From a virus, in IMG/VR virus record IMGVR_UViG_3300034101_004963, positions 1 through 32,178 of that record: 32,178 nucleotides of DNA, one strand, 5' to 3'. The notes under the pieces were generated by a model. That model had not been told where the DNA came from. It did not search any database and worked only from the letters and a program-made list of their open reading frames with translations. A program made the translations under genes and the position numbers. Positions 8,551 through 19,410 of the stretch are shown piece by piece (within the stretch, counting starts at the first letter, position 1; the number at the start of each line of letters is the position of its first letter).

Positions 8551-9378
8551 ATGAGAGACCCAAAAACTGACGACCTTCGGATCGTCATCAATCTTGACTT
8601 TGACATCGAAGCCGACGGCGTCTCCACCGAAGGGGACGAAGACCTGATCGATCCCATGTGGTGCGAAATCGAGTACGTAGACGGCCAAGGTGAACTGCAT
8701 AGCCGAGAAGTCATCCTGCAAATGATCGAACGCAGGAAACGCTACCCGTCGATCGTTGCCAGTTTGGCCGACGACGAAGAAAAAGTGCGCAGTTTCAGGA
8801 TTGACCGCATCCAGTCGATTACGACCGAACACGGTGAAATCTACGAAGGCACCAGCTTTCTGACCGAGGTTCTGGGACTTAATATAAGTCCACGCAAGCT
8901 GCTTAGGGCACAGCCGACGCAAGAGGGTGCGACGCAAAGGCCAAAGAAGAACCCGCCTTGGGCCCCCCCGCAGCCTGGCACGGCCACGCTTATGGACTGC
9001 ATCGAGTCGCCCCTTTTGGTGCTTGTCGCCTGCGCCATGATCGACGGCAGCTTTGACGAAGCTGAACTGTCCTGTATCCGGGCATGGGCGGAAAGCGAGG
9101 CGCGTTTCCTTCACCTCTCGGGAATAATCCCGGAAACCTCTGCGCCCGAATTCGCATATATATTTCGCCGGATAGATGCCATGAGGCCCGCGATCAACGA
9201 AAGACAGCGCCACATGGCAATCACAGCGCAGATGACCGCCGAGGCCATCACGCGCTTCTGCGCAGCGCTGCGAGAAGTCGCCAATGCGGGCAGCGGCCAT
9301 CCAGACAAGTTGAGTTTGGTCAGCGATTTCGACATCCTGCGGCAGAACCCGTACATGCTGCGCAAGCTGCTGACGTGA
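8551..9378 (+). CDS. WYL-like plus TerB-like domain accessory protein
   Basis: 275 residues with ideal GGAGG spacing. Residues ~38-90 fit a WYL-type ligand-sensing fold: IEYVDGQGELHSREV, then ERRKRYPSIVAS, then SFRIDRIQSI, although the name-giving W-Y-L triad is not evident. A Pro-rich linker (130-145) leads to a helical domain starting LLVLVACAMIDGSFDEAEL (155-173), the DG..D..E pattern of TerB-like proteins. WYL proteins usually sense nucleic acids or nucleotides and often regulate defence loci. The gene has its own promoter region, opposes the left operon, and is less GC-rich than its neighbours, the hallmarks of a moron expressed from the prophage. Role is inferred. Confidence 0.6.
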   Translation: MRDPKTDDLRIVINLDFDIEADGVSTEGDEDLIDPMWCEIEYVDGQGELHSREVILQMIERRKRYPSIVASLADDEEKVRSFRIDRIQSITTEHGEIYEGTSFLTEVLGLNISPRKLLRAQPTQEGATQRPKKNPPWAPPQPGTATLMDCIESPLLVLVACAMIDGSFDEAELSCIRAWAESEARFLHLSGIIPETSAPEFAYIFRRIDAMRPAINERQRHMAITAQMTAEAITRFCAALREVANAGSGHPDKLSLVSDFDILRQNPYMLRKLLT

Positions 9379-9381
9379 AGG

Positions 9382-9422
9382 GGCGGTCAAGTGGTTCACA
9401 GCGCACCACCCCGCCGTTTCTT
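9382..9422. terminator. Possible bidirectional hairpin between convergent genes
   Basis: GGCGG (9382-9386) and GTGGT can pair with ACCAC and CCGCC (to 9415), leaving an asymmetric internal loop, followed on the plus strand by GTTTCTTT. It overlaps the end of the convergent minus-strand gene. Weak by itself, but the place is right for a terminator of the 8551-9378 gene. Confidence 0.3.
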
Positions 9423-9614
9423 TGGTCGGCGGTGAATGGCCAAATCCTCGAGAGTCAAGGCGCTGCCGCGTCGTGCGGCAGCCTCGATCAAGTCGGCATC
9501 ATAGCAGGCAGGAATGTTCCCGCGCCCGGCCCAGGAATGCACCGTCGTGTAAGGAAGGCCGAGATCATCGGCAATATCCCGGATCGTTGGCCAGATGTGT
9601 TGCAGGTGTTCCAT
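9396..9614 (-). CDS. Cro-like HTH regulator, probably translated from a leaderless mRNA
   Basis: 72 residues from ATG 9614. An HTH spans residues ~11-45 (IRDIADDLGLPYTTVHSWAGRGNIP), followed by ADLIEAAARRG and 'LTLEDLA', the layout of small Cro/YdaS-type repressors of alphaproteobacterial phages. A longer reading from 9650 is excluded because it would cover the promoter. The promoter at 9650-9622 places the transcription start at or next to the A of this ATG, with no room for a ribosome-binding site. It is one of two candidate switch repressors. No peptidase (S24) domain is present, so RecA-stimulated self-cleavage is not possible. Basic C-terminus (KKRR). Confidence 0.75.
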   Translation of the reverse strand: MEHLQHIWPTIRDIADDLGLPYTTVHSWAGRGNIPACYDADLIEAAARRGSALTLEDLAIHRRPKKRRGGAL

Positions 9615-9621
9615 GCGGGCA

Positions 9622-9650
9622 TTGATACGCACCATGCGTATTGCCGTCAA
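9622..9650 (-). promoter_or_regulatory. Promoter with embedded switch operator O1
   Basis: Minus strand: TTGACG (9650-9645), 17-base spacer, TATCAA (9627-9622). The 17-bp operator ATACGCA-N3-TGCGTAT occupies 9625-9641, covering spacer and -10, so binding must block this promoter. A second, interleaved inverted repeat, GCGTATTG-N4-CAATACGC, spans 9636-9655 and covers the -35. The start point would fall at about 9617-9614, the gene's ATG. Confidence 0.7.
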
Positions 9651-9722
9651 TACGCAATTTGCTGACTGTGATCAGCACCCTGCGAAGGTACCTTTGGAAC
9701 ACGTCTTTTGAGGAGAAAGTGG

Positions 9723-9983
9723 ATGCTGCAAGAACTGGGAGACAACCGGGATGCCGTCGCATTGCGCCTCATCCGGGTGCGCGAGGTCCTTGGCTACGAT
9801 CAGAAAAGCTTCGCCGAAAAGGCAGGCCTGCTTCCACAAACCTACGGACCCTATGAAACGGCCAAGCGCGAACTTACGCTGACGTCCGCGAAACTGTTGC
9901 GCAAGGCCTATGGGATCCCGCTCGACTTTCTGTTCTTCGGAAAGACAGATGACCTGCCGCAGAGAATCGCTGCCCACCTGTAG
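9723..9983 (+). CDS. XRE-family HTH regulator
   Basis: 86 residues from ATG 9723, preceded by GAGGAG (9710-9715) at 7 bases. A HTH_3-type domain covers residues ~14-70: LIRVREVLGYDQKSFAEKAG, then YETAKRELTLTSAKLLRKAYGIPLDFLFFG. The length and the absence of a C-terminal dimerisation/peptidase domain make it Cro-sized. It is divergent from the other HTH gene across 110 bases that contain O1, a GCTGA-N6-TCAGC repeat (9661-9676) and a perfect AAGGTACCTT palindrome (9685-9694), all candidate operators. Which of the two proteins maintains lysogeny cannot be decided from sequence. Confidence 0.8.
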   Translation: MLQELGDNRDAVALRLIRVREVLGYDQKSFAEKAGLLPQTYGPYETAKRELTLTSAKLLRKAYGIPLDFLFFGKTDDLPQRIAAHL

Positions 9984-10087
9984 GGCAGCCCATCAACCAA
10001 ATCGGCCCAGAAATCTAACGGCAAACCCGTTTCGGCGCGTGCTGATTTCATCAAGTCAAGCAGGCAAGCTTCCTGTTTCGGCGTCAT
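9908..10087 (-). CDS. Candidate LexA-controlled small protein (possible antirepressor)
   Basis: 59 residues from ATG 10087 with an AGGG a few bases upstream. The sequence is coherent for its first ~40 residues (MTPKQEACLLDLMKSARAET, then DFWADLVDGLPYRWAAIL), then becomes basic where it runs antisense to the end of the XRE gene (76-base overlap). No family recognised. Its interest lies in the LexA box 34 bases upstream (10121-10135). In several phages with non-cleavable repressors a small LexA-repressed antirepressor triggers induction, and this ORF is placed to do that. It may also be a chance frame. Confidence 0.4.
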   Translation of the reverse strand: MTPKQEACLLDLMKSARAETGLPLDFWADLVDGLPYRWAAILCGRSSVFPKNRKSSGIP

Positions 10088-10120
10088 TGGTTTCCCTCGT
10101 CTGACCTTCTACCTCTGTTA

Positions 10121-10135
10121 GAACAAAATCAGAAC
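10121..10135 (-). promoter_or_regulatory. LexA (SOS) box, alphaproteobacterial type
   Basis: Reads GTTC-N7-GTTC on the minus strand (GAAC-N7-GAAC on plus), an exact match to the direct-repeat LexA site established for Rhodobacter, Caulobacter and rhizobia. A TTTACA (10153-10148) upstream on the minus strand could be the -35 of the promoter it blocks. It precedes the 59-residue ORF starting at 10087. Confidence 0.7.
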
Positions 10136-10270
10136 AACTCGCCATTTTGTAAAGAGCCTTTTGGCGTCACGCCATCTTTCCACAGACTTCCTCACAGGAA
10201 ATTCGCTGGCTTGCCTGTCAGGGCATCCAAGAGCGATTCTTGCATTGGCAGCCAGCCGCGCATCAGGTGA

Positions 10271-10287
10271 ATACGCATGGTGCGTTT
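10271..10287. promoter_or_regulatory. Switch operator O2
   Basis: ATACGCA-TGG-TGCGTTT, one mismatch from the perfect palindrome. Its first 15 bases equal O1 read on the minus strand. It lies 30 bp (about three helical turns) centre to centre from O3, which favours cooperative binding on one DNA face. Confidence 0.65.
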
Positions 10288-10294
10288 TTCGGTG

Positions 10295-10323
10295 TTTACA
10301 ATACGCATCATGCGTATTACACA
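10295..10323 (+). promoter_or_regulatory. Early-right promoter with operator O3 as its spacer
   Basis: TTTACA (10295-10300), then exactly the 17-bp perfect palindrome ATACGCA-TCA-TGCGTAT (10301-10317), then TACACA (10318-10323). The operator fills the -35/-10 spacer. A start near 10330 would give a ~40-base leader to the ATG at 10372. The -10 is only a partial match. Confidence 0.6.
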
Positions 10324-10371
10324 TCTTCCCACAAACCCCGGCACGCCGCCGGGTGAAGGGGAGAAACCGCC

Positions 10372-10605
10372 ATGACACCGATCCACACAAAGATCAGCTA
10401 CGACCCGCGCGGCTTTGACGCTGTCGTATGCGTCCTGACCGACAAGGCGGAGGGTGGGACCCTCGCCTTTCGCTGGCTCTTGCGCGCCTACGAAGGTTAA
10501 AGCATCCCCGAATTGACCCGGCTTGCCATTGAAAACGGTGAGCCGTTGTCAGCGGTGCAGTGCCGGGAAATTTTCGGTCATCAAGAAAATTACGAAGCAG
10601 CCTGA
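10372..10605 (+). pseudogene. First early-right gene, interrupted by an in-frame TAA
   Basis: From ATG 10372 (preceded by AGGGGAG) the frame encodes 42 residues and meets TAA at 10498-10500. The same frame then continues for 34 codons of ordinary protein-like sequence (SIPELTRLAIENGEPLSAVQ and on) to TGA at 10605. Joined, they would make one 77-residue protein; a single base change of GAA or CAA to TAA would explain the stop. Either the gene is truncated, the first 42 residues suffice, or the base is a sequencing error. No function recognised. Confidence 0.5.
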
Positions 10606-15706: not shown

Positions 15707-15991
15707 ATGACCGCCCCCGCCCTTCTGACCCCGGCAGAGGCCGCCGCGCGCCTGAAGGTCAGCGAAAAGACCTTGCGCCGCCTGCGGGATCGCGGGCTAC
15801 GCTATGTCATGCTCAGCGCCGGGTCGATTCGCTACAAGGCCGAAGATCTGGTCGCGTTCATCGAAGCAAGGTCACAGGAATGCCGTTCCGCCCCAAAAAC
15901 TCCCGCTTCTGGCACTATGACTTCCAACTCCAGGGTCGTCGATTTCATGGCTCTTGCGGGACCGAAGATTTCGAAACGGCCAAGGGGATAG
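15707..15991 (+). CDS. xis: Excisionase-like HTH protein
   Basis: 94 residues. Residues 7-55 form a MerR-like winged HTH of the excisionase/HTH_17 type (LTPAEAAARLKVSEKTLRRL, then GSIRYKAEDLVAFIEA). Immediately upstream of the integrase, this is the expected recombination directionality factor. Its C-terminal 38 residues (Ser/Thr-rich, then VVDFMALA and a basic end) overlap the integrase start by 112 bases in another frame; a similar tail occurs, as I recall, in related proteins, so the overlap appears genuine rather than a misjudged end. Confidence 0.75.
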   Translation: MTAPALLTPAEAAARLKVSEKTLRRLRDRGLRYVMLSAGSIRYKAEDLVAFIEARSQECRSAPKTPASGTMTSNSRVVDFMALAGPKISKRPRG

Positions 15992-16953
15992 AGTCGCAGG
16001 CCCGCGTCGACGCCAGAACGGCGCTGCACCATGCCGCCGCCACCAGGGGCGTCTTCACTTTGTCCGAGGCGATAGGCACCTACTACGCCGATATCTGCGA
16101 CCGCCAGCCAAGCGCGCGCACCAGCCTGTCGCAGGGCAAGGCCATCCTGCAGGTCTTCGACAGGCCAAAGCGGCTGGATCAGCTGACCGATGCCGATCTG
16201 CTGCACTACGTCGCCCGCCGCCGCGCCACCGTCTCCAACGCCACCGCCAACCGAGAGCTGCAGTTCCTTGGCCGCGCCCTGCGCCACATGGCCCACTACC
16301 ACGCCGCGACCGTGCCGGTGCTGGACTGGAAACGGCCCCAGGCAGCCGAGCCGGAAGAACGGGTGCGGGAACTGACCTGCGATGAACAGGCGGCCCTCTT
16401 TGCCGCGCTGCGCACCGACCTGCACCCTTTCGTGAAATTCGCGCTGATGACCGGCGCGCGCCGCGCGACGATCTGCGGCCTGCGCTGGCGCGACGTTGAT
16501 CTGGCTACATCCCGGATGCGCTTTGCGCTGAAAGGCGGCAGGACCATGTTCTTTCCGATCAACCGCGAAATGCAGGCCTTCCTGGGGTCCCTGCCCCGGT
16601 CAGACCTGCCGTCCGAAAAGCCCTTTGTGCTGACCTATGTCGATCAGACCGGCAACGCCAGGCACCGCCGCCGCATCAGCCCGACCGGTGGCGGCGTGCA
16701 TGACGATTTCCACAAGGCGGTGATCGCGGCCGGGATCGAAGACTTCCGCTTCCACGACCTGCGCCACACCTTCGCCACAAGGATGCTGCGCCAGACCGGC
16801 AACCTGAAACTGGTCTCACGCCTGCTCGGCCACACCTCCATCGAAACCACAATGCGCTACGCCCATGTCCTGGACGCCGATCTGGCCGAGGCAATGGCGG
16901 GTTTCAGGCTGGAAACACTCACAACCAGAAAGATGAAACATGTCGAAACTTGA
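15880..16953 (+). CDS. int: Tyrosine recombinase (phage integrase)
   Basis: 357 residues with the complete catalytic set: R194 (TGARRATICGLRW), K218 (ALKGG), H292-x-x-R295 (HDLRHTFATR), H318 (LLGHTSIETTMRYAH) and Y327. An arm-binding N-terminus (RFWHYDFQLQGRRFHGS, a beta-rich motif) and a core-binding SAM-like domain (~60-150) precede it. It should recombine the tRNA-Gly core at 17433-17478, using the arm repeats on both sides. Start ATG 15880 has only a weak GGA nearby and lies inside the excisionase gene, suggesting coupled or low-level expression. Confidence 0.95.
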   Translation: MPFRPKNSRFWHYDFQLQGRRFHGSCGTEDFETAKGIESQARVDARTALHHAAATRGVFTLSEAIGTYYADICDRQPSARTSLSQGKAILQVFDRPKRLDQLTDADLLHYVARRRATVSNATANRELQFLGRALRHMAHYHAATVPVLDWKRPQAAEPEERVRELTCDEQAALFAALRTDLHPFVKFALMTGARRATICGLRWRDVDLATSRMRFALKGGRTMFFPINREMQAFLGSLPRSDLPSEKPFVLTYVDQTGNARHRRRISPTGGGVHDDFHKAVIAAGIEDFRFHDLRHTFATRMLRQTGNLKLVSRLLGHTSIETTMRYAHVLDADLAEAMAGFRLETLTTRKMKHVET

Positions 16954-17622: not shown

Positions 17623-17646
17623 GCGGTTCGCGGGTTGTTCCGCGCC

Positions 17647-18174: not shown

Positions 18175-19410
18175 TCACACATCCTGATTGATCCCCACCC
18201 GGATAAACCCGCCGTTCGGAAAGGTCTCGATCTTGCCATCGGCATAGGTCACGCGAAATTCCGCCTCATACAGCCCCGCCGTCGCGGTATCCCCGGCCTG
18301 CCAGCTGTATTCGACCGTCGGTGTGCCGGTGGCGGTCACCACAAGGGCACCCACATCCAGAATCACGCTGCCGTTGCGCGCCCGCATCTGAAACCGCACC
18401 GTGGCCCCGGTCAGATCGACAGTCGCAGGTTCCAGCGCATAGCGGATCGCCGGGGCGGTATCGCCGCGCTTGATCGTGAAACCGTTCACTCCGAACCCTC
18501 CTTCAATGGTGCCGCCATTCGCCGGATCGCCGGGGAAGGCAAAGCGGGTGGAAATCAGCGAGGGGCTGTACCCGATCACCACGGCCACGCCTGCCGCAGT
18601 GCCCACAGCACTGGCCGTCGACGCGCCCTGCGCCGCTGCCGTTGCCGCGCCTGCCGCAGTGCCCGCAGCACTGGCCGTCGACGCGCTTTGCGCCGCTGCC
18701 GTGGCCGCGCCCGAGGACGTTCCGGCAAAGGCCAGAATCCGCGCCCCCTGGGCCTGCGCCGTGGCCAAACCGGCAGCGAAGGCTGCCCCCGCAACAAGTC
18801 CGCCGCCCGCAGGGCTTTGCCCTACCGCCGTTGCCGCGCCTGCCGCAGTGCCTGCAGCACTGGCCGTCGACGCGCCCTGCGCCGCTGCCGTGGCCACCCC
18901 CGCCGCCGTGCCCGCAGCACTGGCCGTCGACGCGCCCTGTCCCGCCGCCGTCGCTGTGCCAGAGGACGTTCCGGCAAAGGCCAGAATCCGCGCCCCCTGG
19001 GCCTGCGCCGTGGCCAAACCGGCCGCGAAGGCTGCGCCCGCAACAAGTCCGCCGCCCGCAGGGCTTTGCCCTACCGCCGTTGCCGCGCCTGCCGCAGTGC
19101 CTGCAGCACTGGCCGTCGACGCGCCTTGCCCCGCTGCTGTCGCTGTGCCCGAGGAAGCCCCGGCAAAGGCCAGAATCCGCGCCCCCTGGGCCTGCGCCGT
19201 GGCCACCCCCGCCGCTGCGCCCGCAGCACTGGCGCTGGCCGCGCCCTGCCCCGCTGCGGTTGCGGCACCCGCACTTGCGCCAGCAAACGCAAGGATCGCG
19301 GCTCCCTGTCCTTGCGCAGCGGCACTGCCCGCCGCCGACCCTACGGCGCTGGTGATCCCACCACCACCACCGCCGCCACCCGCCAGCCGGGGAACACGGT
19401 TGCGCAGCAT
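18175..19410 (-). CDS. Ala/Gly-repeat fibre with BppU-like C-terminal domain
   Basis: 411 residues. A Gly8 run (12-19) follows a short N-terminus. Residues ~20-275 are tandem ~18-residue units of the type GTAAGAATAAAQGASTASA, interspersed with ILAFAGTSSG blocks: a repetitive, shaft-like region. Residues ~310-411 form a beta-rich domain starting FTIKRGDTAPAIRYALEP with VRFQMRARNG and GLYEAEFRVTYADG, resembling baseplate-upper-protein (BppU) N-terminal Ig-like domains. It is probably a structural tail/baseplate fibre linked to receptor binding. The DNA repeats make it prone to length change. Confidence 0.7.
   Translation of the reverse strand: MLRNRVPRLAGGGGGGGGITSAVGSAAGSAAAQGQGAAILAFAGASAGAATAAGQGAASASAAGAAAGVATAQAQGARILAFAGASSGTATAAGQGASTASAAGTAAGAATAVGQSPAGGGLVAGAAFAAGLATAQAQGARILAFAGTSSGTATAAGQGASTASAAGTAAGVATAAAQGASTASAAGTAAGAATAVGQSPAGGGLVAGAAFAAGLATAQAQGARILAFAGTSSGAATAAAQSASTASAAGTAAGAATAAAQGASTASAVGTAAGVAVVIGYSPSLISTRFAFPGDPANGGTIEGGFGVNGFTIKRGDTAPAIRYALEPATVDLTGATVRFQMRARNGSVILDVGALVVTATGTPTVEYSWQAGDTATAGLYEAEFRVTYADGKIETFPNGGFIRVGINQDV
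18713..19125 (-). repeat. 249-bp tandem repeat within the fibre gene
   Basis: The 164-bp segment 18713-18876 recurs at 18962-19125 with two mismatches seen, an offset of exactly 249 bp (83 codons), so frame is kept. Shorter units of the same theme flank it. Such near-identity indicates recent duplication and allows recombination to alter shaft length. Confidence 0.8.

Follow-up and report, generated by a model that had tools for sequence, protein, structure and literature searches.

A putative LexA-repressed antirepressor gene overlapping the end of a non-cleavable XRE repressor gene in temperate phages of Rhodobacterales

Small antirepressors that are repressed by LexA and act on repressors that are not cleaved have been described for Gifsy, 186 and N15 (PMC3121763). 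The lysogeny switch of the Sulfitobacter phages phi-A and phi-D has been called undeciphered (PMC7305329), and the LexA motif of alphaproteobacteria has been described as GTTC-N7-GTTC (PMC3323433). Here we report on a locus of the IMG/VR virus record IMGVR_UViG_3300034101_004963 (positions 1 to 32,178; the whole stretch of 32,178 nucleotides (nt) is referred to as the window), in which an open reading frame (ORF) of 59 residues is preceded by a LexA-type box and reaches antisense into the gene of an XRE repressor. The ORF probably encodes a LexA-repressed small antirepressor directed against this non-cleavable repressor and would represent the damage input of a Rhodobacterales temperate phage. 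The module consists of the following features:

9908 to 10087, minus strand: tiny ORF of 59 residues with ATG start and the conserved core GLPLDFWADLTEGLP; putative SOS-induced antirepressor
10094 to 10098, minus strand: good Shine-Dalgarno sequence GAGGG, 6 nt before the ORF ATG, read from the sequence
10121 to 10135, minus strand: LexA-type (SOS) box GTTCTGATTTTGTTC, an exact GTTC-N7-GTTC, 34 nt before the ORF ATG
9723 to 9983, plus strand: XRE repressor gene (helix-turn-helix (HTH) family HTH_3), 86 residues, from MLQELGD to IAAHL and the stop
9908 to 9983, both strands: tail-to-tail antisense overlap of ORF and XRE gene, 76 nt

The ORF was found by tblastn in the Pseudanabaena phage Pan4 with 56% identity and by a genome scan in Paracoccus fontiphilus and P. 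caeni, and GTTC-N7-GTTC is present upstream of the ORF start in each of these three cases. Scanning viral contigs with the single ORF sequence gave nothing, but profile searches did yield members on 17 more viral contigs, and three further close members came from genomes of the family to which P. fontiphilus belongs. The close set hence comprises 24 loci, the window and 23 relatives, which should not be taken as 24 independent cases because some of them are closely alike. The antisense course of the ORF into the XRE gene, as stated in the preliminary description of this DNA, is seen in all of them with an overlap of exactly 76 nt, which corresponds to 9908-9983 in the window.

The box by itself is not significant, since 0.56 exact sites are expected per window from dinucleotide shuffles compared to two observed, and two such sites were reached in 10 of 100 shuffles. 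Because of this chance level, conservation becomes the deciding evidence. An exact box in either orientation was found 18-56 nt upstream of the ORF start in 16 of the 24 close loci, and a box with one mismatch in three further ones (L026, L027 and L039); the background in the close loci is 3.5e-5 per nt, i.e. 0.0038 per 110-nt upstream window. The distances between box and start may move by a few codons, because the starts were predicted in the relatives. The preliminary description had claimed an exact alphaproteobacterial LexA site at 10135-10121 on the minus strand and looked to related phages for the conservation of box plus ORF; the match is exact, and its position is kept far above chance. 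These comparisons strongly support the box at 10121-10135 as a real LexA-type site. The two Paracoccus genomes that carry ORF relatives, P. fontiphilus (G001) and P. caeni (G002), were taken as host relatives for the window, and in both of them GTTC-N7-GTTC is found before the start of recA (GAACAAGAAGTGAAC) and the same motif before the start of lexA (GAACAGATACGGAAC; GAACATTCATGGAAC). A second exact GTTC-N7-GTTC exists in the window at 17626-17640, between the gene following the integrase and the structural genes; it has no evident role, and chance predicts about one such site.

The 59-residue ORF is likewise strongly supported as a real, selected and unannotated gene by the substitution pattern of the 24 sequences. 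In the 27 codons ahead of the overlap, the ratio of non-synonymous to synonymous differences per site (pN/pS) is 0.29, with synonymous sites near saturation, and the differences in the ORF part outside the overlap are distributed over codon positions 1/2/3 as 2504/1286/4599. Inside the overlap all 24 sequences keep the frame open, compared to a mean of 12.1 and a maximum of 18 in 400 synonymous recodings of the repressor, and the identity to the consensus amounts to 0.75, while recoded repressors reached at most 0.655. The length of the ORF varies among relatives by in-frame changes only. It was also examined whether the ORF is disrupted where the box is kept, which had been named as an objection to the earlier claim; the ORF is intact in all box-bearing relatives, and this objection does not refute the claim, because the frame is unbroken in all close relatives. 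Chance alone, with a coincidental box ahead of a spurious antisense frame that the codon bias of the repressor holds open, is therefore hardly credible as an explanation and was rejected: the 0.56 boxes expected per window would permit such a coincidence, but the conserved box position, the pN/pS value, the restriction to in-frame length changes and the recoding test contradict it. The annotation of Pan4 and of a Cereibacter plasmid record covers the XRE gene only, and the ORF has probably been missed because it overlaps the repressor gene. Pfam and NCBIfam gave no match for any member of the ORF family, the sole PHROG match had an E value of 0.25, and a sequence search of the PDB gave no match.

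More distant members of the family were found as well. The genome search for the ORF also gave eight loci (L028-L035) with other XRE genes, each overlapped over 64-172 nt by a convergent ORF, and the profiles of the distant and close branches match each other for the ORF (P 6e-17) and for XRE (P 2e-24). Exact boxes are present upstream of three distant members (L029, L030 and L033), and an ORF homolog with an exact box (GAACAAAGTAAGAAC) is located in a prophage-like region of the Cereibacter azotoformans plasmid pORIO5 (L078). A tblastn search of a phage collection with one close and one distant ORF returned only Pan4 or nothing. The class-wide sample of 385 genomes contained the already known P. 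fontiphilus genome and one weak partial match; hence, the family looks concentrated in Rhodobacterales. Box, ORF and overlap are strongly supported as a conserved module of Rhodobacterales phages. On Leisingera plasmids, near repABC (L007:5956-6267 and L079:2935-3270), a longer hypothetical protein was observed, similar to the ORF core in its N-terminal part, and no XRE gene is annotated opposite to these genes.

The acting product might alternatively be the transcript, i.e. a LexA-driven minus-strand RNA that silences the repressor, either through antisense pairing or through transcription that collides over the XRE gene, while the peptide would be secondary. Such a mechanism would fit with the orientation of the gene, which is directed into the repressor gene at all phage loci, and with the search of 9300-10600, in which no terminator-like site turned up on the minus strand. 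However, selection acts on the amino acid sequence outside as well as inside the overlap, the most conserved ORF block, GLPLDFWADL, lies outside the part that is antisense to the repressor coding sequence, and on the Leisingera plasmids a related protein segment is kept within a longer annotated gene that faces no annotated XRE gene. The conservation points to the peptide rather than the RNA as acting product, which makes a primarily RNA-based switch quite unlikely; an antisense role of the ORF transcript beside the peptide, as put forward in the preliminary description, is no more than a possibility.

The suggested target of the antirepressor, the 86-residue XRE protein, matches Pfam HTH_3 (E 7.9e-8) and was modeled with high confidence (AlphaFold2 (AF2); predicted local distance difference test (pLDDT) 90.7); the best structural matches of the model include C.AhdI, C.Esp1396I and the 434 repressor domain (Foldseek E >0.01, probability ~1). 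The protein stops shortly past the HTH fold. Pfam detected no peptidase domain on this or the second HTH protein encoded at the locus, and no S24 peptidase was found in any of 12 family records (window, Pan4 and ten others), while control genomes scored. The statement of the preliminary description that neither HTH regulator has a self-cleaving domain can accordingly be extended to the entire window, in which S24 is absent. It is strongly supported by these profile searches that the XRE repressor is non-cleavable. The phage repressor without self-cleavage domain and the small LexA-boxed gene, two of the features that characterize the LexA-controlled small antirepressors, are both found on the same element. 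A toxin-antitoxin pair was also considered and set aside: such pairs normally form co-directional operons, while ORF and XRE gene are convergent and the ORF has its own LexA box. The surroundings of the module contain three further elements:

9396 to 9614, minus strand: second HTH gene (MEHLQHIWPTIRDIADDLGLPYTTVHSW...), oriented divergently to the XRE gene
9626 to 9640, no strand: palindrome TACGCAccaTGCGTA directly ahead of the second HTH gene, probably an operator of the repressor
10302 to 10316, no strand: palindrome TACGCAtcaTGCGTA ahead of the early genes that run rightward, probably an operator of the repressor

The second HTH protein shows similarity to the carph-isopro domain (E 1e-7, below the cut-off of that domain), and its gene is kept in 13 loci, the window and syntenic homologs in 12 others; from its position the gene would be Cro-like. 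One TACGCA-N3-TGCGTA palindrome is situated on each side of the module, and comparable palindromes surround the module in several relatives; these sites likely represent repressor operators.

The antirepressor function is proposed because a small LexA-boxed gene is placed in the immunity region together with a non-cleavable repressor, and because of the analogy to GftA/GfoA, Tum and AntC. In the lysogen, host LexA bound at GTTC-N7-GTTC would silence the small convergent gene, while the XRE repressor would occupy the two operators flanking the module. RecA filaments would then trigger LexA self-cleavage, whereupon the ORF would be transcribed toward the repressor gene and across its end. The product of about 59 residues would bind and inactivate XRE, by which both early promoters would be freed, and antisense transcription across the repressor gene may contribute as well. 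In the most speculative step, the product would mimic helix 4-5 and the C-terminal, likely dimer-contact segment of the repressor, leading to inactive mixed dimers. We infer LexA binding at the box, damage induction and XRE binding by the ORF product from the layout of the locus; inactivation of the repressor is suggested by gene position, regulation, precedent and a weak-to-moderate resemblance to the repressor C-terminus. The module is probably how Rhodobacterales phages with uncuttable repressors sense DNA damage and become induced.

Regarding this resemblance, ORF residues 9-40 align to XRE residues 52-84 (hhalign P 5e-5; close-branch profiles), and the score was reached in 0 of 300 column shuffles with the full ORF as well as in 0 of 300 with its non-overlapping part. 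The models of both proteins share the order of a helix, a GLP/GIP turn, a short helix, a loop and a short helix; a Pfam HTH match was not obtained for the ORF family. The last helices commonly form the dimer contact in C-protein-like dimers, hence a dominant-negative pairing is an attractive guess. The data hint at an ORF that mimics the last three helices of the repressor in a dominant-negative manner. The combined idea goes further, in that the ORF would be a decoy of the dimer-contact end, perhaps originating from an inverted duplication of the repressor 3' end and still tied to it tail-to-tail by the 76-nt overlap, which makes dead mixed dimers while its transcript opposes repressor synthesis; we regard it as doubtful in this complete form. 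Mimicry is weakened by the search for a DNA-level inverted repeat as remnant of the duplication, which revealed no consistent long one; therefore the duplication idea is based solely on the protein resemblance.

Several results weigh against the antirepressor interpretation. Five of the 24 close loci (L017, L018, L019, L021 and L038) have no box upstream despite keeping ORF and overlap, indicating that some members are regulated otherwise. A sigma-70-like promoter was searched at the box and not found, the structure model of the ORF is of low confidence (pLDDT 67.6), and a fold search with this model gave no match. In the distant branch the resemblance of ORF and XRE end is weak (P 0.0097, 5 of 300 shuffles). 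Mirror-tree analysis of 13 related loci did not reveal a co-variation of ORF and XRE in excess of their common history (partial r -0.03), while the partial distance correlation between ORF and second HTH protein is 0.37. Finally, divergence is lower in the ORF core (mean 0.31) than in XRE residues 1-61 (0.40), as might be expected if the target were a conserved one in the host. The last observations, together with the stand-alone relatives on Leisingera plasmids, would be in line with a peptide acting as SOS-induced effector on a target other than XRE, either the second HTH protein or a conserved host factor, for instance in cell division or RNA polymerase. However, the coupling to the XRE gene is fixed in every phage locus, the ORF resembles the XRE C-terminus, the phage needs a damage input and has no S24 peptidase in its record, and the correlations come from only 13 related loci. 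We consider another target unlikely and prefer the antirepressor of XRE. The box-less branch of close loci is marked by ILVGKSS or ILVGRSS in the ORF.

Some observations concern the hosts and the remaining window. Pan4 (L003, ON968455.1) is recorded as a Pseudanabaena cyanophage, yet it has the exact alphaproteobacterial LexA box; either its module results from cross-phylum transfer or the true Pan4 host is in question. A match to a CRISPR (clustered regularly interspaced short palindromic repeats) spacer was detected inside the ORF:

9979 to 10009, minus strand: near-match of a Rhodobacter sp. SGA-6-6 spacer, 27/31

The differences to this spacer (L006:2900-2933) are all synonymous, and TTC, the usual type I-C protospacer-adjacent motif, precedes the protospacer on the window. 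The match points to Rhodobacter-like hosts and to an earlier infection by a relative. The window furthermore encodes a tyrosine integrase (15880-16953), a primase and a tape-measure protein. A predicted protein of 411 residues at 18175-19410 consists mostly of Ala/Gly-rich repeats (AGAATAxGQ-like) and has a phage-like C-terminal domain (phrog_1627, phrog_1084).

Among known systems, GftA/GfoA/GfhA of the Gifsy prophages of Salmonella share with the ORF the small LexA-repressed protein, DNA damage as cue and a repressor that is not cleaved and lacks the bipartite CI structure (PMC3121763), but the ORF lies inside the immunity region, where it covers the repressor gene end in antisense, and belongs to another host class with another LexA motif. 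Tum of 186 and AntC of N15 are also LexA-controlled antirepressors (PMC3121763); however, Tum has 146 residues with a DinI-like half, and PHROG, Pfam and NCBIfam profiles, used in place of a direct alignment, revealed no sequence relation of the ORF to Tum or AntC. The small-ORF modules of linear plasmid-like phages, such as Qtip of VP882, resemble the ORF as tiny proteins that inactivate a repressor without cleavage, but they are switched on by a neighboring phage transcription factor independently of SOS (PMC10432266), whereas the ORF has a LexA box. Sulfitobacter phages phi-A and phi-D are likewise temperate phages of Rhodobacterales with XRE regulators lacking a LexA/signal-peptidase domain (PMC7305329). 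For the question how Rhodobacterales phages with short XRE repressors sense damage, the module offers an answer that is concrete and can be tested. Through the fixed 76-nt overlap and the likeness of ORF and repressor end, it is also unusual in that a regulator and its putative antagonist are encoded on opposite strands of one DNA stretch. In the literature searched, no description of a peptide-plus-antisense induction switch was found. The suggestion of an undescribed induction module therefore stands in part: the logic of LexA, small antirepressor and non-cleaved repressor is already known, whereas the protein family, its occurrence in Rhodobacterales phages, the fixed antisense overlap and the possible mimicry appear to be new within that literature.
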